NCBI RefSeq assembly: GCF_019320115.1
Contig: NC_089586.1
Location: 2,938,804-3,002,803, forward strand
Direction: 5' to 3'
DNA from: Miscanthus floridulus
Lineage: Eukaryota; Streptophyta; Magnoliopsida; Poales; Poaceae
DNA: 64,000 nucleotides
Positions 17,920 to 36,100 of the stretch are shown here, one piece after another; position 1 is the first letter of the stretch; each line of letters opens with the position of its first letter. A program made the position numbers and the translations under genes. The notes below the pieces were generated by a model, which had not been told where the DNA came from, did no database searches, and worked only from the letters and a program-made list of their open reading frames with translations.

Positions 17920-20683
17920 TGTAACAGAACCGACCAATTATACGAAATTAAGTAAGAAAATCATCCACCAGAGCAGACGATTTAGCAAACTTAAGCCCGT
18001 ATAACCCGGTAGTCCGTGAAATCACGAAGGATTTCAAACCAACTCACATCCCAGCCAAGATCGTAATAAGTTTAGCGGTCACCATCACATATTACATAAA
18101 AGTTCGCATCTCAGATACATCAGAGTTTAAGCATAGTTATTACAAAACGAGTTCGAATAAAAGTAGCGGAAGCCATTTGTTCAAAACCACACACACTCAC
18201 ACGGAGTTCAAATACAGTGCCAGCTAATGATCATCTCCAACAAAAGCATCAGACGAGACATAAGGAATGACCATGCCCATGGTCCTAAGCATCACCCATC
18301 GCAGGATAAAGGCAGTTGATACAGTAGCCATAATACATCTGCCCATCTGCAACAAGTGGGAATAAAACCCTGAGTACAAAAAGGTACTCAGCTAGACTTA
18401 CCCGACATAACTGAAAATAAGTGACACCAAGGACTATGAAGGCTTTATAGTAGGGTAGCTGACTCATTTGCAAAATGAAGCATTTTTAGCATTTTAAGAA
18501 CCTTTATAAAAGCATTATTGCCAAATTAACTATTTATAACCTGTCGACTAGATTTGCACCTACACTAGAGCAAACATGTGATTAAGCCAATAATGATAAC
18601 CAATGACCATTAAACAACTTTCATAATGTCATATTCATTATAACTGTCCAAGTGTTCCATCAACATTACTATAATGAAGTCACTCAAGTCAAGTGCTCAC
18701 TATCCAGGAGCGATGGCGATTCGAATCGATTCCTAACCAGCTGGTGATTTATTCCTTACACAAAAATAACAAGCTATGGTATGATTATGAACATGAAAAT
18801 ACTTTGTACTGTGAAAAGTGTCAAACAACAGAGGAAATATTTTTCCTATGTTCTACCCAGCAAATAATCATGGTACAAAAATTATCACATGCATGTTTTA
18901 TACAAATTTTGCTCTCTAGCAAAAATAACAAAAATCAGCCATTAAAGGCACTTGAACTACACCTCATACTTTTTCTACAGCACATGCATGACATATATTT
19001 TTCCTAGGAAGTACATTACATAAGAAGATTAACAAACTTGGAAATCATATTTTTCTGAAGCTTATAGGTTTTTCTACATATTTTTCAAGTTATCAGCAAT
19101 ATCAAGGATTAAATAAAGCTCTACAGAAAAGTATCTCAACAATAACATGCAATAATTTTCTCATGTAGATCTGGTGACAAGCAACCTAGAAAATTTTATT
19201 TCAATAGATTTGGAGCAAATTTGAGTATACAAACATTTTCCAAATCATTTCTCTTTTCAAATAATAAAAGACAAACTGAAACGTAATTTTCCTATTACTA
19301 CTGGGCTGGCCCGTGGAAACCAGCTGGCCCATGGCCACTTTCGGCCTGTGCAGTCCGAGCGAAGGGGAAGGGCGGCCTGGCTCAGGGCTTCGGCCCACGG
19401 CCACTTGGCCTAGCTCGGCCGAGGCGAAGGGGTCACGCCCCGCCGGCGCTCCGGACGACACGGTGGCGCGGCATGCTCGCGTGCGGGCACCTCCCGGCCA
19501 CAGCAAGGCACGGGGGGGGGCGCACAAGATGCGCAAGGGCAAGGCGGGCACGGTGCGCGCGGAAGGAGGAAGATAGGAAGGTAGAGCCGGGCTGTCCGCG
19601 CGGGCACGAGCTCCGGCGAGCTCGGCCAGCTCGGCCACGGCGGTGCGGAGACGAAAACTAACCACAACCGCCTCTCACCTCGATGACGGCAGCCGAACGC
19701 AGGCGCAAATGATGGAGCTTGACGAGGCGGAGCTGTGGACTAGAAGTAGGCGGTGGAGGTGCGGTGGAGCTCGCGCGAGGTGGCGGCGGAGGGGGTGCGG
19801 TGCTCAGCGGCGCTGTGCTTTGCCGCGGCGAGAGGAGGGGCGAGCACGGGAGAGCGAAAGAGCGGGCGGGAGTGAGTGGAGAGGAGCGCAGCGCGGCTCG
19901 ACAGATGTAGGTGTGCGCGTGGAGGCGGAGTCAGGCCGTGGCTGCCACGCGGCGGGCGTCACCGGCGCATGGTCGCCACGCGGCGATCGTGTTCTGACGC
20001 GGTGGGACGCAGCACGGGCGAACGGCGCGGCGCAGCGCGAAGGCAGGCCAGACGCGCGCGAGTCTGGGCTGGGCCGAGGCGAGGTGGGCTGGCGTGGGCA
20101 CGGGAGGTTCGCTGGGCCAGCTTCAGCCGTGGGCCGAGAAACGGGGCGACGACCCACGAAAGGAGAAAACATTTTCCTAAATTTCTATTTTTAATAAATT
20201 TTCAAATATCAGTTTTTTAAATATCATTTTGAGCAAGAAAATGACATCTTTTGAAAATGGCCCAAAAATAAAAGTTGCTTAGAATTTAATCCTCTACAAC
20301 TTTGCTTTTATGTCCAAAGTCCAATTCTTGCTAGATTTTGAATTATAAATTTAAAGTCAATTTTAACTCAAAACCCTAATTTTGGACAATAATTTGGCAA
20401 TAATTTAAATACAAACTTTGCTCCAAAAATTGTGCTAAATAATTCTAGATGATTTACAATCATTGCCAAATAAGTTCTACTAACCTAGCAAGCATAATTA
20501 GGGCAAAAACAACTCTAAACAAGTGTATGCAACATTTACGTTTCACGAGCATGTTTTGTATGTTATGAAGCAGGGTTTCAGTTATTATTTACATGATTAG
20601 ACATGTATGATTAGGATGCTTGATGATGCATGATATGCATGATTTGCAGTGCCTAAATGCTGGCATAACACCGGGGTGTTACA
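17920..20683 (-). repeat. 3' LTR of the chromovirus
   Basis: 2764 bases, ends TG...CA. Long AT-rich halves surround a GC-rich core (19300-20160) that is open in several frames; these frames recur in the other LTR and have no domains, so I do not call genes. It differs from 27343-30102 by scattered transitions, a missing run of about 20 bases near 20390 and an extra GATATGCATGATTT-like stretch near 20630. Confidence 0.9.
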
Positions 20684-20729: not shown

Positions 20730-22820
20730 CTATTTGTTATAAAAATCTTCATAAGTTTTTTGTAGATATTCTCCCGTTTCTCAAGTTGCATCTCCCTCAT
20801 CGTGATGATCCCACTGTATCTTGTATGTTTTCACCACACTATTCCAAGTAGCACGTTCTTTAGTGTCTAACACACGGACCGGTTGTTCACGGTACACCAA
20901 ATCTGATTTGAGTTGGATGCCTTGAGGTTCTATTCTTTCCTCCGGAACACGCAAACACTTCTTGAGATGTGATACATGGAAAACTAGGAAGACACTACTC
21001 ATTGTCTCAGGTAACTCTAACTTATAAGCTACTGGACCTCTTTTTTCCAAGATCTTGTATGGTCCTACGAATCTCACGGCAAGCTTTCTTCGGACTCCAA
21101 ACCTTTTCTTCTTCATTGGCGTGACCTTCAGATAAACATAGTCACCAACTTCAAACACAAGGGGTCTCCTTCTTCTGTCTGCATAACTTTTCTGACGTGA
21201 TTGGGCCGCCTTCATATTTTGCTGAATAATATGAACTTTCTTCTCGGCTTCTTCTACAAAGTCAATGCCATAATACCTTCTATCTCCAGGCTCGACCCAA
21301 TTCAATGGTGTTCTACATTTTCTGTCATACAAAGCTTCAAATGGAGCCATCTTGATGCTTTCTTGATAACTATTATTATAAGAAAACTCAGCTAATGGTA
21401 ACCATGACTCCCATGATCCCTTAGAAGACAATACACAGGCTCTTAACATATCCTCCAAAACAGCATTCACTCGTTCAGTCTGACCATCTATCTGAGGATG
21501 ATAAGCGGTACTATGAATCAAACTAGTTCCTAAGCCTTTGTGTAAATGTTCCCAAAAGTGAGCCATGAACTATGACCCTCTATCAGATACTATAGTCCTT
21601 GGTATACCATGCAACCTTACAATTTCTGCGATATACTTCTTGGCTTATTGAGGTGGTCGATAAGTTGTCTTGACATGTAGGAAATGAGCGGTCTTAGTAA
21701 GACGATCCACAATCACCCAAATCGAATCATGTCCCTTTTGAGTAGTGGGCAAACCCGAAATAAAATCCATACTTATATCATCCCACTTCCAACTAGGGAC
21801 TGACAAGGGTTGCAACATACCGGTAGGTTTCATATGAATGGCTTTCACTCTACAACATGTGTCACATCTGGCAACATATGCTGTAATTTCTTTCTTCATC
21901 TTGGTCCACCAATAACAAGGTCTTAGTTCTTGATACATCTTACTACTTCCCGGATGGATAGATAGCTTAGAAAGGTGAGCTTCATTCATGAGTTTATTCC
22001 TAAGCTCTCGATCCTTGGGAACCACAAGACGGTCGTCAAACCACAACACGCCCTATTCATCCACTTTAAAGTGCTGAGATGGCTTTTCTTTTATTTTCTC
22101 TTTGATGTGGAATATTCCCTTGTTGGTTTTCTGGTCTTCTATTATCTTACTCTCCAAAGAGCAACTAATCTGAATACTATGTAACACAGTAGGATGCATC
22201 AGATCGAACCCATCTTCAAGTAATAGCTGCACATTCAAGTAATGTGACTTTCTGCTCAAAGCATCTGCCACTACATTGGCTTTTCCAGGATGATATTGCA
22301 CATTCAAGTTGTAATCTTTGATCAATTTCAACCATCTGCGCTGTCTCATGTTCAGCTCTGGTTGGGTAAAGATGTACTTAAGACTCTTGTGATCTGTGAA
22401 AATATTGCACACATTACCAAGTAGATAATGTCTCCAAATTTTTAGGGCATGCACAACTGTAGCAAGTTCAAGATCATGTGTTGGATAGTTGACCTCGTGC
22501 TTTCTCAATTGACGTGAGGCATAAGCAATGACTCTCCTTTCTTGCATAAGAACACAGCCCAATCCAGTTTTTGATGCATCGCAAAACACATCAAATGGTT
22601 TCTCGATATCTGGTTGTGCTAGAACAGGAGCAGTGGTCAACAGTTTCCGCAAAGTGTGGAAAGCTGCTTCACACTCCTCTGTCCACACAAACTTGTGATC
22701 CTTCTGTAGCAGACTTGTCATCGGTTTGGCAATCTTCGAGAAGTCTGGTATAAAGTGACGGTAATAACCGGCTAGTCCTAAGAAACTTCTAATCTCAGGA
22801 CTGTGGTCGGTGCCTTCCAA
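20730..22820 (-). pseudogene. Chromovirus pol: RNase H and integrase part
   Basis: From 22820 downwards the frame first completes the reverse transcriptase connection ([20 protein letters not shown]). RNase H follows ([16 protein letters not shown], later [11 protein letters not shown] and ADALSRKSH). Next come the integrase HHCC zinc finger (HPGSSKMYQEL, ARCDTCCRVKA), the integrase core (MDFISGLP, an aspartate block at IVSDRGS, DGQTERVN with the glutamate) and a C-terminal domain with GPYKILEKRGPVAYKLELP and a possible short chromodomain-like end to 20730. In-frame stops occur at 22050-22052, near 21642, before 21566 and at 20778 (a TGA where TGG is expected). The start of this block is one phase off the reverse transcriptase block upstream. 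Confidence 0.85.
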
Positions 22821-23863
22821 TCCATAACCTCTTGCACCTTACTTGGATCGACTGAAACTCCATTTTCTGATAGAATGTGACCAAGGAAAGGAACTTTCTT
22901 CAACCAGAATTCGCATTTGCTAAACTTAGCATACAGCTTATGATCTCTAAGTCTGGTCAAGACAATTCTCAGATGCTCTTCATGATCCTTCTCGTTCTCG
23001 GAGTACACCAGAATGTCATCGATGAACACCACCACGAACTTATCTAATTCTGGCATGAAAACTGTATTCATCAAAAACATAAAGTATGCAGGAGCATTTG
23101 TCAAGCCAAAGGACATGACAAGATACTCATACAACCCGTATCTAGTGAAAAATGCAGTTTTCGGTATATCTTGTGGCCTAATCTTGATCTGATGATAACC
23201 GAATCTCAAATCTATTTTTGAGAACACCTTAGCCTTGGCTAACTGGTCAAACAGAACATCAATATGAGGCAAGGGATACTTATTCTTGATGGTTACAACG
23301 TTAAGTGGCCTATAATCTACGCACATTCTCAACGTGCCCTCTTTCTTCTTCTTCACAAACAAGGCGGGACATCCCCATTCAGATTTGCTTGGCTGGATAA
23401 ACCCCTTTTTCGATAACTCTTCTAGTTGCTTCTTCAGCTCAACTAATTCATCTGGAGGCATCCGATAGGGTCGCCTTGAAATCGGAGCTGTTCTAGGGAT
23501 TAACTCAATTCCAAACTCAATATCCCTATCTGGCGGAAGACCAGGTAGCTCATCAGGGAATACATTCAGAAACTCACACACTACCAGAATCTGCTGAATA
23601 GGAATAACTTCAGTAGCACATGTAACACTTACAAGGTCTGTTCTCCGAGGCAATGGTACTTGGAAAGTACCCTCACCCAGGGGATCCTTAAGGGTAAGTA
23701 CTCGACTTCTGGTATCTATGACTGCTCCCCAATCCTTCATCCAATTCATCCCTATAATGACATCCAAAACTAGTCCAGGCATAACTATCAAGTTCACTCA
23801 GAACTTCCTGCTACCTAATTCAAGGGTTGCCCCTCAAACCATCCGATTGGTCAAAACATCAGC
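22778..23863 (-). pseudogene. Chromovirus pol: end of protease and reverse transcriptase
   Basis: Frame 23797-22778 begins in the protease C-terminal part ([11 protein letters not shown]). It then has the gypsy reverse transcriptase with [20 protein letters not shown], the [15 protein letters not shown] finger motif, [12 protein letters not shown] and the catalytic FIDDILVYS with both aspartates kept. It ends by frameshift at 22778-22820. The reverse transcriptase itself has no visible active-site loss. A few stops separate it from the upstream gag/protease frame. Confidence 0.88.
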
Positions 23864-25204
23864 TCATGCTGAACTTATACAGTAACCATAACCCAATTCT
23901 GTGCATAGTTGTTCATGTTTCTGTGCAAATGCTTGACTCATAAAAGAATGCGATGATCTAGAATCAAAGAGAACAACTACAGGGTTTTGGTTGATAGGAA
24001 ACTTACCAGCGGTTACGGGCTCTCCCTCAGGAATCTCATCCATAGTCGTACTATGTACCAGAGCATTATAGGTCTGCTTCTTCTTGGGCGGATAAGGACA
24101 AAACCTTGAGAAGTGGACGGGTTGGTCACAATTGTAGCAGGGTCCCCTCACTGTCCCAGCAGATCCCACAGCCCCCTTGGAACTGCCTTGTACCGCAGTT
24201 GCGGCTGCCTTGTTGGGTTGTACTGCCATCTTGTAAGGCTTCTGGGGTCCACGGAAATTCTGACTTCTCTGCTGAGGTGGCCTGAACCTAGCGCCAGGTG
24301 CCGATGGGCGATAGGGAGGACGACCTCCCACAGGTGCTCTTGCTTAGGATGGACCACCTTCAAGGGCTCTCTTGCGAGTCTTGGCTGCGGTGCTGGCGTT
24401 GTTGTTCTTTACCTACTTTAGACAATCGCTGATGAAGTCATTGAATCTAACGCGGTTGTTGGTACCCACATGCTTCATCATTTTTGGATTGAGTCCCCTC
24501 TTGAAACTGGCTATTCTCTTAGCATCGGTGTCAACCATGTCGGGAGCATAACGACACAAGTTGTTGAAGGCATGCAAATATTGCGTCACGGTCTTGGTGC
24601 CCTGATTCAATGCCAAGAACTCTCCCAACTTCATCTCGGTCAGCCCGGGTGGAATATAAACTCCACAGAAGGCCTCAGTGAACTCTCTCTACGAAATCTG
24701 AGCATTTGGAGGGAAGGTGGTGCGATGATGCTTCCACCACATTCCCGCTAGTCCTTGCAACTAATGTGCAGCATACTCCATTTTCAATACCTCAGTCATC
24801 CTCAACACATGGAATTTATCTTCCATAGTGTTGATCCATTCCTCAGCATCGAGTGGCTCTGTTGCTTCCTTGAATATTGGCGGCCTGGTGTCCATAAAAT
24901 CTTTGAAGCTGCTATATTGGTTCACTCCAATGCCACCACCCTGATTGTTACCGCGCTGAACGTTGTTGGCGATGGTGCGTAGAAAATCCTCCATGTTCTT
25001 CTGGGATTGTTCCGCGTTACGTTGACTCCCGAGCAACTGTGCGAGGAACATCTCTGGGGTAAACGGGGGAGGAGGTGGCAAATGCGGTTCATGGGGAGGC
25101 TCATTGTTGTTGTCGTGGTTTCCACCACCACCATCGGTCCCCGCACCGTTAGCACCGGTCTCAGCGGCCTCATACGTGGTACGGCGAGTGTTTGTCATCT
25201 GCAT
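23864..25204 (-). pseudogene. Chromovirus gag and start of protease
   Basis: Gag starts at 25204 (MQMTNTRRTTYEAAE). An acidic/proline-rich N-terminus is followed by the retrotransposon gag domain (IFKEATEPLDAEEWINTMEDKF, then LNQGTKTVTQYLHAFNNLCRYAPD). A basic linker and a zinc knuckle CYNCDQPVHFSRFC (C-x2-C-x4-H-x4-C) come next, then the protease region where the catalytic DSG reads DSR (VVVLFDSRSSHSF, about 23960). The recognisable blocks are all in one phase, broken by stops at about 24758, 24695, 24410 and 24342. The DSG change would inactivate the aspartic protease. Confidence 0.85.
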
Positions 25205-25562
25205 ATTTCAGCAACAAGTAATGATTGAGTGAAGCTGTAATAATTGCGAGTGAAGGAAAAATTATGCCGTACTGAATTTACTGGAGAGAATAAATTCATA
25301 CAATAAAACAGAGGCACAACAATCACATCCCAATTAAAACAACATCACTTAATCAAATTACTTCAACAGCAAACATCGCGTCCATACAACCAAATTGCCA
25401 GCATACATACACTAGACTTTTATGCGTTCAGATATCGCATTCTTAATCAAGTTCCAACCACATGCCAAGTCTCATAAGTTCGAAGCAAAATACGTTAGGT
25501 TACATGCCAACAAAAGAAATGTCATCGCGACAGGACCTAGATACTAGCGCAAGGCAACTAGC
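25205..25562. other. Spacer between chromovirus ORF0 and gag
   Basis: 358 bases, AT-rich, no frame of note on either strand. ORF0 and gag are in different phases, so gag would need internal initiation, a separate transcript or splicing. Confidence 0.5.
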
Positions 25563-26552
25563 CTACTCCTCGGGGCCATCGTCGGGATCAGAGATGTCAC
25601 CATCGCCCCCAGGTGAAACTATAGGCTCGTCCTCATTGTCGTCGTCGATGTCCATGCTAGCGGCGTCTGGAGGAGCATATGGGCCAACCCCATTGTAGAG
25701 CGCATGAAACTCCTCGTGCAGGTTGACGTTGTACTCCTCTAGCTCATCGACCCTCTGTAGCAGAAGGTCCCTCTCGTCCTAGGCTTTATTCCTTTCCTAA
25801 ACCAACTGTCCAATCATGCGGTCTACATTGTTGTTGGCTTGAGTCAACGTATGCACCCGCTGCATAGCTCTATCACCTCTCTCAACCGCCTGGTTCCGCT
25901 GTAAGTTCATATCCGCTAACTGCTCCTGCAAACTAGCTATAGCACGTGCCTATCTCTTCTTCTACTTTCTCCCCTTGAGCTTATCCTGACCACATAAGCC
26001 AGTCAAAGTCCAGTAGGTACTCTCAAGACCCTCATACGCTCTGATGGCAGCGAACATAGCACTCATAGCCTGATCGTCGCTAGCCTGTCCCTCAGCTGGA
26101 CCTCTGACCAAGGCACTTCCCTGAGGCTAAACCTAAATAGCATCACGAGGATCATCCCTAGGAAAAGTGCCAGCTAGAGCTGCTACAAGCTCACTGGGAA
26201 ATATGCTCATGATATCCCTGATGACACGAAAGGCTGCTCCCTCCGCACCCTCAGCAGGAGTGCGACCCTCAAACTCCAAGTGCCAACCATCCCAATCTGG
26301 AGCATCACCAAGAGCAGGAACCGTGATCTCTACCACTGCAAGTCCATCCTCTGCTAACTGGCTCTCATTCCAAGAGTACACCAGCTCTTGACCCTCTGGG
26401 TACCCCACATCATGGAGCACTCTCCAAAGCAAGGTCGGCATGCCAAACTCGCTCAAGAAGGTGTCCGTGGTGCGGTGCTCCCTCAAGGCCAACGGACATC
26501 AAGGTGCTCTTCCTCCAGTGGACTTACGGGCGGTCTGCTTCGTGCGAGCCAT
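25563..26552 (-). pseudogene. Chromovirus ORF0 with histone H3-tail N-terminus
   Basis: This minus-strand frame of 329 codons lies between the primer-binding site and gag. It starts with ATG at 26552, reads MARTKQTARKSTGGRAP and ends with TAG at 25565-25563. Residues 2-17 equal histone H3 positions 1-16 except Lys14 to Arg; K4, K9 and S10 are kept. Similarity stops after Pro16. Residues 20-139 are a unique, possibly globular part (LLWRVLHDVGYP, WDGWHLEFEGRTPAEGAEGAA). Residues about 195-285 look coiled-coil (ASLQEQLADMNLQRN, LLLQRVDELEEYN), and the last 30 are highly acidic (DIDDDNEDE). Internal stops are at codons 18 (TGA), 140, 142, 197, 201, 252 and 258 (all TAG); no frameshift. Codon 18 TGA falls where H3 has Arg17. 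Extra ORFs before gag are known in some rice gypsy elements; I know no function for this one. This copy is dead, but the shape suggests a chromatin-reader decoy or targeting protein. Confidence 0.85.
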
Positions 26553-27325
26553 TTGTAGCAAAAGTTCTTTTATTACCCCGTGGAAATATATTTTAGGTAA
26601 TACAACTTTTATCAAAATGAGATAATCAATTTATAAGGGAAGGAATGCATGACATGAATGAAATGCACAAGTAATATGATGTATGTACGTGCCGTACGTT
26701 CTCACAAACTTATGAAATACATAATTTCTAGTGACGAATTCGGTGGCATACAAACGATCTCTCAATTACGTAGCTAATACGTTCTACACGATAGCATTGT
26801 TATGTACCTGCAGAAGATTCATTTCAGCCCAATTCCCAATAAATGCATAAAAGCAGTAAATTTTATCTACACGCTCTACATGAATCCATAGATACGTGTA
26901 CAACAGTAGTAACTACCCGAACCATCGCCCTATTGACGGCATCGCCTCAACAGACGGAAGACCCACACATGACGTACCTTTGTAAAACATGCGTAGAACA
27001 TGTAATTACTCCAGCATCATATAAACATTCACCCTAGATCGACGGTGTATCCGATCATGCTCTCACAACTCACACTTACCGAGGCGTAGAGGCAATTGAT
27101 CCATACATTACCACTCAAACAAGTGGCACTCATACAATAGCATGCCGTATGAGCGACGAAAGAGAAATATGATGCAAGAACCCCAAGTCAGTACTTAATT
27201 AAGCCACCTAAAGTCCTTAGCTGGGCATAAAGGATATGACCACTGGCATACTTTTTAGTTTGGAAATCACATTTTTCAAATGCCTTTTTGTTTTAAATAC
27301 ACTTGTGAACAGTAACACGCTAAAT
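26553..27325. other. 5' leader of the chromovirus
   Basis: About 770 bases between ORF0 and the primer-binding site, AT-rich, no coding signal seen. Such untranslated leaders usually carry packaging signals, which I cannot identify. Confidence 0.5.
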
Positions 27326-27340
27326 CATGCTCTGATGCCA
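27326..27340 (-). promoter_or_regulatory. Primer-binding site of the chromovirus (initiator Met tRNA type)
   Basis: On the minus strand TGGCATCAGAGCATG starts two bases inside the 5' LTR. It differs at one base from TGGTATCAGAGC, the complement of the plant initiator tRNA-Met 3' end. Confidence 0.8.
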
Positions 27341-27342
27341 GC

Positions 27343-30102
27343 TGTAACAGAACCAACCAATTATACAAAATTAAGTAAGAAAATCATCCACCAGAGCAGA
27401 CGATTTAACAAACTTAAGCCTGTATAACCCGGTAGTCCGTGAAATCATGAAGGATTTCAAACCAACTCACATCCCAGTCAAGATCGTAATAAGTTTAGCG
27501 GTCACCATCACATATTACATAAAAGTTCGCATCTCAGATACATCAGAGTTTAAGCATAGTTATTACAAAACGAGTTCAAATAAAAGTAGCGGAAGCCATT
27601 TGTTCAAAACCACACACACTCACACAGAGTTCAAATACAGTGCCAGCTAATGATCATCTCCAACAAAAGCATCAGACGAGACATAAGGAATGACCATGCC
27701 CATGGTCCTAAGCATCACCCATCGCAGGATAAAGGTAGTTGATACAGTAGCCATAATACATCTGCCCATCTGCAACAAGTGGGAATAAAACCCTGAGTAC
27801 AAAAAGGTACTCAGCTAGACTTACCCGACATAACTGAAAATAAGTGACACCAAGGATTATGAAGGCTTTATAGTAGGGTAGCTGACTCATTTGCAAAATG
27901 AAGCATTTTTAGCATTTCAAGAACCTTTCTAAAAGCATTATTGCCAAATTAACTATTTATAACCTGTCGACTAGATTTGCACCTACACTAGAGCAAACAT
28001 GTGATTAAGCCAATAATGATAACCAATGACCATTAAACAACTTTCATAATGTCATATTCATTATAACTGTCCAAGTGTTCCATCAACATTACTACGATGA
28101 AGTCACTCAAGTCAAGTGCTCACTATCCAGGAGCGATGGCGATTCGAATCGATTCCTAACCAGCTGGTGATTTATTCCTTACACAAAAATAACAAGCTAT
28201 GGCATGATTATGAACATGAAAATACTTTATACTGTGAAAAGTGTCAAACAACAGAGGAAATATTTTTCCTATGTTCTACCCAGCAAATAATCACTGTACA
28301 AAAATTATCACATGCATATTTTATACAAATTTTGCTCTCTAGCAAAAATAACAAAAATTAGCCATTAAAGGCACTTGAACTACACCTCATACTTTTTCTA
28401 CAGCACATGCATGACACATATTTTTCCTAGGAAGTACATTACATAAGAAGATTAACAAACTTGGAAATCATATTTTTCTGAAGCTTATAGGTTTTTCTAC
28501 ACATTTTTCAATTTATCAGCAATATCAAGGATTAAATAAAGCTCTACAGAAAAGTATCTCAAAAATAACATGCAATAATTTTCTCATGTAGATCTAGTGA
28601 CAAGGAACCTAGAAAAATTTATTTCAAAAGATTTGGAGCAAATTTAAGTATACAAACATTTTCCAAATCATTTCTCTTTTCAAATAATAAAAGAAAAACT
28701 GAAAACGTAATTTTCCTATTACTACTGGGCTGGCCCGTGGAAACCAGCTGGCCCATGGCCACTTTCGGCCTATGCAGTCCGAGTGAAGGGGAAGGGCGGC
28801 CTGGCTCGGGGCTTTGGCCCACGGCCACTTGGCCCAGCTCGGCCGAGGCGAAGGGGTCACGCCCCGTCGGCGCTCCGGACGACACGGTGGCGCGGCATGC
28901 TCGCGTGCGGGCACCTCCCGGTCACAGCAAGGGACGGGGGGCGCGCACAAGATGCGCAAGGGCAAGGCGGGCACGGTGCACGCGGAAGGAGGAAGATAGG
29001 AAGGTAGAGCCGGGCTGTCCACGCGGGCACGAGCTCCGGCGAGCTCGGCCACGGCGGTGCGGAGACGAAAACTGACCACAACCGCCTCTCATCTCGACGA
29101 CGGTAGCCGAACGTAGGCGCAAATGATGGAGCTTAACGAGGCGGAGTTGTGGACTAGAAGTAGGCGGTGGAGGTGAGGTGGAGCTCGTGCGAGGCGGCGG
29201 CGGAGGGGGTGCGGTGCTCAGCGGCGCTGTGCTCTACCGCGGTGAGAGGAGGGGCAAGCACGGGAGAGCGAGAGAGCGGGCAGGAGTGAGTGGAGAGGAG
29301 CGCAGCGCGGCTCGGCAAGTGTAGGCGCACGAGTGGAGGTGGAGTCAGGCCGTGGCTGCCGTGCGGCGGGCGTCGCCGGTGCATGGTCGCCACGCGGCGA
29401 TCGCGTTCTGACGCGGTCGGGACGCGGCGCGGGCGAACGGCGCGGCACAGCGCGGAGGCAGGCCAGACGCGCGTGGGGCTGGGCTGGGCCGAGGCGAGGT
29501 GGGCTGGCGCGGGCGCGGGAGGTTCGCTGGGCCGGCTTCGGCCGTGGGCCGAGAAACGGGGCGACGACCCGCGAAAGGAGAACACATTTTTCTAAATTTC
29601 TATTTTTAATAAATTTTCAAATATCAGTTTTTAAATATCATTTTGAGCAAGAAAATGACATCTTTTGAAAATGGCCCAAAAATAAAAGTTGCTTAGAATT
29701 TAATCCTCTACAACTTTGCTTTTATGTCCAAAGTCCAATTCTTGCTAGATTTTGAATTATAAATTTAAAGTCAATTTTAACTCAAAACCCTAATTTTGGA
29801 GAATTATTTTTAAAGCAAAATTTGGCAATAATTTAAATACAAACTTTGCTCCAAAAATTGTGCTAAATAATTCTAGATGATTTACAATCATTGCCAAACA
29901 AGTTCTACTAACCTAGCATGCATAATTAGGGCAAAAACAACTCTAAACAAGTGTATGCAACATTTACGTTTCACGAGCATGTTTCGTATGTTTTGAAGCA
30001 GGGTTTCAGTTATTATTTACATGATTAGGCATGTATGATTAAGATGCTTGATGATGCATGGTTTGCAGTGCCTAAATGCTGGCATAACACCGGGGTGTTA
30101 CA
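27343..30102 (-). repeat. 5' LTR of the chromovirus
   Basis: 2760 bases, TG...CA. In the first 260 bases it differs from the partner LTR at about eight places, all transitions in which this copy has T for C or A for G (for example CGACC to CAACC, TACGAAAT to TACAAAAT). That bias suggests decay of methylated cytosines mainly in this copy. Confidence 0.9.
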
Positions 30103-31557: not shown

Positions 31558-32640
31558 GCTAGTCCCCGAGCACCATGTATTATGCTGTGACACGCCATTT
31601 CAACCTTCTCCGACAAGTAAGGCTCGAGTCCTTGACATCTCTGACCACCGTCGTCACCGGAGAAATAGGTTGTCCGAAGAATGTATGGTGCTCTTAAGAA
31701 AAAAGAAAAAGATTTCCGTCCTAGGAAGTGTGCCACTTGTATTTCTGAAGAGAAATGTAAGTGGTCTTGAAGCGTAGCGTCCTTGAACATCAGAGGCGTA
31801 GGGGTCGAAAAACAAACACATTCACCGCAAGGTGAAGTGTGCCCACTTAGTCCCCGAGCCTAGTAGTAGGTGACGTAGGCACGTGGTGCCAGGGTCTAGA
31901 AAGAATTCCTAGTTAAGTTGAGAACCCAATTGCCGTACAGGCAATACGAGATGCACCGGCAGGTGCATCGTACCGATGTAGTCCCCGAGCTTGCTGGAAG
32001 GCAAAGTATGAGCCTTGTAGCATGGTCTAAATAAATGTCTCTCCACTATATGTGAGTACAAATCACACGTCGCCAAGGAGAACAATTCTCTGAGCAGTGA
32101 TCGGGACAGTCCCCGAGCACATTGATAATCCTTACAATCATTCAAAGCACAGAGGTCGAGTAAAACACATTCACCGCAAGGTGAAGTGTGCCCACTTAGT
32201 TCCCGAGCCTGGTAGTAGGTGACATATGTTCATGGTGCCAGGGTCTAAAAAAGAATTCCCAGTTAAGTTGAGAACCCAATTGCCGTACAGGCAATACGAG
32301 ATGCACCGGCAGGTGCATCGTACCGACGTAGTCCCCGAGCTTGCTAGAAGGCGAAGTATGAGCCTTGTAGCAAGGTCTAAATAAGTGTCTCTCAACTGTA
32401 TGTGAGTACAAATCACATGTAGCTGAGGAGAACCATTCTTCAAGCAATGGTCAGGACAGTCCCCGAGCACATCAGTTGTTGGAGCAGTCTCCGAGCACGG
32501 TTTGGTCGGTGCAGTCCCCGAGCACGGCAGTGGTCGGAGCAATCCCCGAGCACGGTAGTGGTCTTGGCAGTCCACGAGCACGACAGTGGTCTAAGTAGTC
32601 CCCGAGCACGACAATGGTCTGGGCAGTCCCCGAGCATTGT
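31558..32640 (-). repeat. 3' region of the Tat-type element: repeated PPT-like motif
   Basis: The motif AGTCCCCGAGC (GCTCGGGGACT on the element's sense strand) abuts the LTR as the polypurine tract and recurs in exact or one-base-changed form at about 31849, 31980, 32108, 32198, 32330, 32458, 32486, 32513, 32541, 32569, 32598 and 32624. Two arrangements are seen. A block of about 350 bases is duplicated in tandem (31817-32166 and 32166-32467). A 27-29-base minisatellite (CAGTCCCCGAGCACGnnAGTGGTC) fills 32456-32640. Each large unit has short hairpins: TTCACC-GCAA-GGTGAA and GATGCACC-GGCA-GGTGCATC. Confidence 0.8.
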
Positions 32641-33158: not shown

Positions 33159-36100
33159 ATGGCGAAGAGAGACGCCCAGAAGAAAGGCGGAGTCATGGCA
33201 AAGGAGTGGTGGAAGTCAAGGAGCAATGAGCAGACCATTGAAGACCTCGTCGCCATGGGAGTGCTCCACAACAAGGCGCTCGCGGGATGGCGTGCGCCGA
33301 AAGGAGAAAGCTTCCCCGACCCACAACCAGGTGAGATTGTGGTGTTCGAGGATTTCTTCAAACGGGGTTTTGGGGTTCTAGTGCACCCTTTCCTTCAGGG
33401 TCTCTGCTTGTATTACCAGATTGGGATCTGCAATCTGCATCCCAACTCGATTCTTCTTATCTCCACCTTTATCCATCTCTGCGAGGCTTATGGTGGCTTC
33501 CAGCCCCATTTCGACCTCTTTCGCCACCTATTCTGTCTTCAGAAGAAAGGGAGCGGTGGCTCGAAGATAGCCGGAGGCGTCTACCTGAATCTGCGCGACA
33601 GTATGAAAGCCCAATACTTGCACTGCCCCTGGAATACCTCACTGGACGAGTGGTACAAGAAGTGGTTCTACATCCGTGAAGAGCTGAACACCATCACCAT
33701 GTGCGACGTGGGGCTGATCCCGGAGAAGAAGAACAGCTGGTCGGAGAAGCCCAAGAACTTGGAGCAGATCGCCGAACTGCTCGGGATGATCCCATGGGGA
33801 AGGCTAGATGGCCCAAGTGTGGTCGGGAACTTCATCAGCCGAAGGATCCAGCCCTGCCAGAAGAGGGTACATCCTGGCTTCGAGTACCAGAGGAGCGCAG
33901 ATCCAACAAGGACTAGGAAAGAGGCGCTCGATAAGATAGAAATCAAGGCCAGGATTGGAGAGCTATTCAACCTGGCTGATCCCAATTATGTCAGGTTGAA
34001 CGACATCGAGCACGCCTTCAAGCTGGCCCGACCTCCCCCAAAGGTAAATGGTGCTTCCTTTTAACTATAGAATCATGTTGTAATAAGAAACTGACTGTTG
34101 TTTCCGTTATGTGCCTCAGAGTAATGGTCGTGACCGGGCAGCAGTGTTCGTGTCTCCGCCCCCCAGTGTGGATTGGCCGCAAGTTGCCCGCCCAGCTGCC
34201 TAGACCAGCGCCAGGACCGATGACGTCCATTGGGCGGCACTCGAGGCTATGGAGGATGCATCGACCAGAGCCTCTGGCAAGCGTCCGGCTGCCAACAAAC
34301 GACACCAAGCCATCTTCCCCCTTTCGGATGATGAAGCAGAGGATGCGGACATCTTTCGGCTCGTCCCTCGAAAGAGGAGGAGACAAATGGGGTCGACGGA
34401 GCAGGGTGGCTCCTCTGTGCCAGCAGTGATCGCATCATCGACCACTGCAACACAGAGGACAAGCGAGGGAAATGTCGAGCATCAAACCCCGACGCCTGTA
34501 CCGATGGTGGAAAGAGTTCTGGTGGAGCCTACTGAGCACGCGGAGCAGGGGCAATCGAGAAGATGCTCCTTTGCCACATCATTCCGCGCTTCAAAGCTGT
34601 AAGTATCTATTACTTTGATGTAAGCTTGTAATTTGTATTGAATACTATTATCTTCTGAACTTTTCTCTGATATATTAGGTCGGCGTCCACCGAGAACCCC
34701 GACTGGCTAGCCAGGTGTGGCACAACTTCGCCAGTAATGGTGGGAAAAACTGCCCAGCAACCAGCCATGGAGGAGCCTGTAGAAGGAACTCCGCTGGGAC
34801 CTCAGTAGGCGGACGACCAGACATCAGTCCCCGAGCGGCTGGTCGAGAAGACAGCCAAGCAGAGTACAAGTGCTCCGAGCACAAACCCTGCTCAGGCGGA
34901 TACCTTGGCGCCAAGGGAACCAGATCAAGCCGAGGAGCAGCAGCCGAAAGTGGCATAGAGCACTCATGCTGATGCAACGGCTCGCGGGAAAGCCATGGTG
35001 GTCGCTGAGACTACAGACTCCAGACCAGCGCCGCCCCCTAAATAGGAGGCTGAAGAGGACGAAGTTGAAGAGGTCCTAGGCCATCTCCAAGATAAGTGAC
35101 AACATGTATATGTGTCGCGCTGGCGGAATGACGAGTGGGTGATGCACGAAGAAATCCCAGAGGTCGAAGAGACCCTAAAAGTTGAACGAGCGACAAAGTG
35201 TCTGGTGACAGAAGTCCAGGTATGACTAGTTTGACCACTTGACCCTGTTATGTAGTCGAACTGTCTTATTAATCTTGTCTATATGCAGGACTTGATGAAG
35301 ACCGCAAAGTACCGAAAGAGGTGCTTCGACCAGATTGAGGGGATTACGGCAAACAATAAAGAACTAACGGCCGAGGTGGAACGCTTGCGCCGCCAAGTTG
35401 AAGCCGTCGACCAGAAGAGGGCAGAGCTAGAGGCACAGAACCAGAACCTAGTCGGCCAGCTTAATAACAAAGAGCGGGAGAAAACAATTAAGTTTTCATC
35501 TTATCATAGCAAGTGCAGGACTTGTGTTGTTGCATTGTTGGCAGTAACAGCTGTAATGCAGGTTTAGAAGCTGAAGTGACCCGCCTCCAAGGAGAGAATA
35601 GCCGCGTGACCGCAGAGTGTGGTCGCCTAAGGGAGGACAACGAGAAGCTGGCGCTCGACCAGTCTGAACTCTGGGACCGCACAACCAAGATGAAGGAGGA
35701 TCTGAAAAGTAAGTATTTCAGACCACCTTTCTCATTCTATTGCCCGCTTTGTCTTGTCGTACCATTACATTTGATGTCTTGTACTGTGTTTAGTTTTAAA
35801 AGTCAATGCTAAGAGGCATTTAGAGGCCGTGATCAAAGAGCATGATGGCTAGAAAGCACGATGCCTCGAGGCCACCGAGGAGCGGGACACATGGAAGAAC
35901 CGGTGCCAAGCAGTGGCAACTGGCATTGTGCCCGTCCTCGACCTTATCGACCCGGCGCTCACAGAGGAAGAGCCAAGGATGCCCCAGCTCAGACTGGCCG
36001 AGAGATGCAGACAAGCGTGGGGATGGTTCCAAGAGTTCGTGAAGGAGGCGGGTGAGTACATGGGTGCCCATGTACTAAGCATGGTGCATGCCCACTACCC

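Follow-up and report, generated by a model that had tools for sequence, protein, structure and literature searches.

An ORF upstream of gag in a grass Ty3/gypsy retrotransposon that begins with a histone H3-like tail, probably derived from a captured H3.3 exon

Chromoviruses of one plant family, the Poaceae, reportedly carry extra ORFs in their 5' regions, part of which are said to resemble the histone H3 gene (Steinbauerova and colleagues, 2011, Genetica 139:1543). The ORF analysed here, ORF0, agrees with that extra ORF in lying upstream of gag-pol, in a Ty3/gypsy element, in grasses, and in its likeness to H3; the two most probably belong to the same family, and the H3 likeness of such ORFs is probably already known. 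We know of no treatment in the 2011 study of H3.3 exon limits, the lysine pattern, a dsRBD-like domain, the splice layout or a mimic role. A search of the literature turned up no report on an exon origin of the tail, on the pattern of its residues, on a dsRBD-like domain or on a role in mimicry. One survey finds likeness to known domains in 21.4% of the proteins of extra ORFs (PMC6317226).

Two other kinds of system are comparable. Among histone mimics are a viral host-antagonist protein with an H3-tail-like end and the H3K9 methyltransferases with their ARKS motifs. Like these, ORF0 has an H3 K9-type motif and H3-tail sequence in a non-histone protein; whereas the known mimics are short motifs, ORF0 has about 21 residues from position 1, apparently a captured exon, and belongs to a transposable element. 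Histone mimicry is the topic of PMC10611923 and PMC12937675. Orchid Ty3/gypsy elements carry a captured m6A RNA demethylase (PMC9289625); they are likewise plant LTR retrotransposons in which a captured domain may act on host control, but what they captured is an enzyme and not a substrate-like tail. The account we favour, in which a captured H3.3 exon forms the N-terminus of ORF0 and acts as an H3K9 decoy or tether against silencing, is a tentative one that we rate a little short of even.

The element and its ORF0 in the window

The window, a 64,000-nucleotide stretch of the Miscanthus floridulus genome, contains a full-length Ty3/gypsy LTR element on the minus strand, with two LTRs, a target-site duplication (ACGAC on both sides) and a primer binding site (PBS)-like sequence (Table 1). 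The latter, TGGCATCAGAGC, presumably pairs with the initiator tRNA-Met. If a rate of 1.3e-8 is assumed, the LTR divergence (K2P 0.0345) gives an age of about 1.3 My. Consecutive pol pieces match, in order, the Pfam families RVP_2, RVT_1, RT_RNaseH, Integrase_H2C2 and SH3_Tf2-1; no Pfam match to an integrase core was found in the pol pieces of this element, and none to a chromodomain in the 39-residue piece at the end of pol, itself shortened by a stop. The end of pol may resemble group II chromodomains, as would be expected of a chromovirus of the Tekay/Del clade. Outside the element, an open frame of 301 aa (33159-34064, plus strand) presumably resembles a retroelement-associated transposase-like protein. 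The window also contains two direct repeats of 223 bases each (31900-32122 and 32250-32472), 91% alike and 350 bases apart.

Table 1. Positions in the window of the element, ORF0 and associated features
Feature	Position	Strand	Basis or remark
5' LTR	27343..30102	minus	2760 bases
PBS-like sequence TGGCATCAGAGC	27329..27340	minus	sequence
Predicted leader intron	26553..27079	minus	from GGTAAG (GT at 27079) up to the last base ahead of the ORF0 ATG; window copy without terminal AG; splicing predicted
ORF0, 329 codons, seven premature stops in the window copy	25566..26552	minus	translation and relatives
H3-like tail, M + 16 residues	26502..26552	minus	ATG at 26552; stop is codon 26499-26501
24 codons, counterpart of coding exon 1 in host H3.3 genes (M + residues 1-23)	26481..26552	minus	host exon limits; likeness in relatives to residue 21-23
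dsRBD-like domain, predicted fold, ORF0 residues 36-123	26184..26447	minus	limits from relative P0015, gap-free alignment here
Long helix, coiled-coil-like, ORF0 residues about 196-285	25698..25967	minus	weak Pfam coiled-coil matches; helix 159-296 in P0015 model
Acceptor-like sequence ending CAG, directly before gag ATG (ATG starts 25198)	25198..25213	minus	sequence
gag + pol, pieces broken by stops	20781..25204	minus	protease, reverse transcriptase, RNase H, integrase zinc-binding and C-terminal domains
3' LTR	17920..20683	minus	2764 bases

ORF0 follows the leader and precedes gag, as a separate forward ORF with H3 likeness. Read from its ATG, bases 26552-26502 encode MARTKQTARKSTGGRAP, which is identical to H3 residues 1-16 at 15 of 16 positions, with R in place of K14; translation thus reproduces the start, strand and match given by the sequence-only reading. 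When all six frames of the window were scanned against the H3 start, Met included, this site scored 16/17 and the runner-up 7/17, so that the window holds no second H3-start-like site. The match is not due to chance. The codon for P16 is followed directly by TGA (first base 26501), closing the frame at codon 18, and further premature stops fall at codons 140, 142, 197, 201, 252 and 258, ahead of the end stop at codon 330. The window ORF0 is a dead copy, which with its seven premature stops cannot perform the role of ORF0. The earlier description of the tail as fused to a non-histone protein therefore applies to the relatives and not to the window copy.

Behind the H3 tail come a dsRBD-like domain and a long helix, and ORF0 finishes with an acidic end. 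Two predicted structure models give the domain an alpha-beta-beta-beta-alpha dsRBD-like fold, and its best structural matches are the non-canonical, protein-binding dsRBDs TRBP dsRBD3, DRB7.2, Staufen dsRBD5 and Loquacious dsRBD3. It differs from these in sequence: the Pfam dsRBD family matched none of the 45 and 8 proteins searched, and no KKxAK-type lysines were seen by eye at helix 2 in the alignment rows inspected (half of the 45). Foldseek with the ORF0 domain returned no match at E <= 0.001. Given the lack of a dsRBD profile match, the domain is classed as a dsRBD-like fold only.

ORF0 could instead serve targeting, being held by chromatin-bound H3 readers, or by the integrase end of the element, and thereby directing integration complexes to particular chromatin. 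Related chromoviruses are reported to be directed to chromatin by an integrase chromodomain (PMC12786077, PMC6317226). Against such a tether stand the absence of a chromodomain match in the stop-shortened piece mentioned above and the lack of any detectable integrase-binding motif in ORF0, and we consider it improbable beside an H3K9 decoy or tether directed against silencing.

Conservation and residue pattern of the tail

Relatives were collected with the ORF0 query carrying X at stops (16 proteins), with P0015 as query (4 proteins) and with a profile built from five N-terminal parts, which gave 201 proteins, the best 120 of which were taken. Of the 121 proteins examined, 19 extend 25 residues or more upstream of the domain's LLW motif, and every one of these begins with the tail. 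The remaining proteins start further in, where a stop-broken tail would not show, so the 19/19 describes the far-reaching proteins and not the whole family. A tree built from the part behind the tail resolves four clades, each well supported, and leaves two rows single. Absence of the tail from related elements, which would have counted against the sequence-only reading, is not what was found: the tail is common to several well separated clades.

Most tail positions retain the H3 residue (counts out of 19: A1 18, R2 17, T3 16, K4 14, Q5 9, T6 17, A7 18, R8 16, K9 19, S10 18, T11 17, G12 16, G13 17, K14 1, A15 14, P16 19, R17 17, K18 0, Q19 16, L20 19, A21 16, T22 1, K23 0). The likeness runs to residue 21-23, and past 23 only R26 is common (12). 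The match had been thought to end at P16, which is not the case in the relatives, where R17, Q19, L20 and A21 are kept at the frequencies just given. Two features of the pattern stand out. K9 is present in all 19 proteins and in every clade of the tail-free tree, whereas K4 is replaced by R or W in 5/19, being lost in 2/3 rows of one clade and 3/3 of another, and Q5 is likewise poorly conserved; of the proposal that K4 and K9 are both kept, the K9 half stands. That K4 is dispensable argues against a common target among H3K4 readers or LSD1-type enzymes. Further, the acetylatable lysines are nearly always replaced, K14 by R in 17/19 and K23 by R in 15/19. A tail that is better kept than the rest of the protein, in clades whose domain identity has fallen to about half, with constant K9 and almost without these lysines, is as expected of a substrate-like H3K9 mimic. 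P0044, a metagenome protein, is the sole one of the 19 that keeps K14 and T22 (TGGKVPRQQLATR), yet it has A at 10 and D at 1; its second half perhaps lies closest to the captured exon.

The most serious rival concerns nuclear entry. The basic H3 tail is an importin cargo signal, and the tail of ORF0 could be a nuclear import signal, reused by the element so that ORF0 itself or particles attached to it enter the nucleus, with chromatin readers irrelevant. The survival of basic charge through the K14 and K23 changes is consistent with this, as is retention of the STGGxxPRxQL part of the tail. A plain import signal, however, would not need to keep K9 invariant with R8 and S10 alongside (19, 16 and 18 of 19), or to begin precisely at residue 1, and we regard this rival as unlikely, though less so than the targeting tether.

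Copies of the element were compared at the DNA level. In one grass genome an H3-like start was found at 1187 sites, some of them host H3 genes, the search for further copies having covered 2.68 Gb in 2420 contigs. Forty-eight genomic loci were fetched, comprising 7 host H3 genes (L001-L005, L021, L022) and 41 element copies, which with the window make 42 copies. For dN/dS, the window was compared with 20 copies of another family, L024 being excluded because of a frameshift. Over codons 11-22, pS is 0.57, pN 0.15 and dN/dS 0.15; in the second half of the domain the values are pS 0.59, pN 0.37 and dN/dS 0.43, while its first 40 codons show saturation (pS 0.81). Codons 2-10 give pS 0.74 and pN 0, the zero arising by construction because copies were selected for encoding those residues. 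Between a closer pair of families (6 by 14 copies) the outcome differs: pN/pS is 0.89 over codons 11-22, above that of their domain (0.16 and 0.46). Over these codons, the comparison of tail and remainder proposed with the sequence-only reading is favourable between the more distant families and unfavourable between the closer ones. In 29/42 copies (L006-L008, L011 and others of the same family in the genome) R17 has become S, a family-wide change within an otherwise kept tail. Conservation between clades covers most of the tail, as judged from these alignments, yet is non-uniform.

Changes of this kind would suit a passive relic, in which the captured exon merely provides a start codon and a splice acceptor and the peptide is functionless; the 0.89 ratio and the R17 change speak for it. 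Against such a relic, the mean pairwise identity of residues 1-22 (78%) exceeds that of residues 23-30 (30%) and of the first 55 positions of the domain (52%; 18 proteins). The synonymous sites of the tail, meanwhile, differ widely between the window and the other family (pS 0.74 and 0.57). A functionless tail is the least probable of the alternatives, slightly behind the targeting tether, and an H3K9 mimic remains the reading that we favour.

Exon origin and expression layout

In 7/7 host H3.3-type genes, the first coding exon comprises M and residues 1-23 and is followed by GT. The next exon opens with AARKSAPTTGG, that is at residue 24, and includes T31 in the four genes where the translation shows it (L001, L004, L021, L022); T31 is a mark of H3.3. 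AG directly precedes the ATG in 5/7 host H3 genes. Since the start and the end of the element tail coincide with the H3.3 exon limits and the acceptor, exon capture is taken as its origin. The tail had previously been held not to be a histone gene fragment; it resembles instead a captured first coding exon of H3.3. Third positions agree between the window and host H3.3 in 6-8 of 17 codons, in a comparison with H3.3-type genes only. For 20 copies, retrieved through an H3-like pattern in the first place, the figure is 8-14 of 16-19. DNA-level support for the exon origin is weak. Taken with the protein comparisons, the anatomy of ORF0 and the origin of its tail from a captured H3.3 first exon are nonetheless very probable.

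The acceptor appears to have been kept. AG stands right before the ORF0 ATG in 41/42 element copies (40 CAG, 1 TAG), the window being the exception, and GGTAAG or GGTAAA lies 350-700 nt (about 500) upstream of the ATG in 41/42, with none in L035. Leaders were aligned for 14 of 22 element sequences, those with a recognisable PBS, and 14/14 have the GGTAA site within otherwise diverged sequence. GGTAA[GA] also occurs in the same interval at 2/7 host loci, so such a site by itself is weak evidence; together, the AG and the upstream GGTAA suggest expression of ORF0 by splicing. The window leader contains 8 ATGs from the PBS to the GGTAAG site and 18 more from the site to ORF0, which would make translation of ORF0 from unspliced RNA difficult. 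The gag acceptor motif (<=3 substitutions) is present in the window and in 8/41 fetched copies, with AG before the gag ATG in 9/9; it was not found in the other 33 copies within the stretch of sequence examined. From these motifs we infer one leader donor serving two acceptors, those of ORF0 and gag. A TATA-like sequence, CCTTATAA, lies about 80-90 bases before the ORF0 ATG (26631-26640, minus strand) and recurs in 13/14 aligned leaders, L027 being one base off; an internal promoter driving ORF0 is a possible reading.

Proposed role and significance

We propose that a grass Ty3/gypsy element captured the H3.3 first coding exon (M and residues 1-23) long ago, and that this exon serves as the N-terminus of ORF0, a protein separate from and encoded upstream of gag. 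Splicing of the leader donor to the AG before the ORF0 ATG would produce an mRNA starting there, and removal of Met from its product would expose a free ARTKQTARKS end, which the long helix may multimerise. Host proteins that recognise H3 around K9, such as SUVH-type H3K9 methyltransferases and H3K9 readers, could then bind or methylate the tail. As a decoy or tether, it would weaken silencing of the element.

Judged from the residue pattern, a role as an H3-tail mimic toward H3K9 writers or readers is possible, and we hold it with slightly more reserve than the account as a whole. As a lead only, the dsRBD-like domain hints that ORF0 may have a further binding partner, possibly in the DRB and DCL machinery. 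A broader counter-silencing ORF0, in which a free tail with K9 but almost none of the acetylatable lysines, multimerised by the helix, combines with a protein-docking dsRBD-like domain to engage both the H3K9 and the small-RNA arms, is rather unlikely, if less so than import.

Retention of K9 with replacement of K14, K18 and K23 makes a sharp and cheap prediction for peptide assays. The tail would also be a clean example of exon capture by a retroelement, with the host exon limits preserved. If H3K9 writers or readers do recognise it, the transposon would be turning a piece of histone against the very system that marks transposons.
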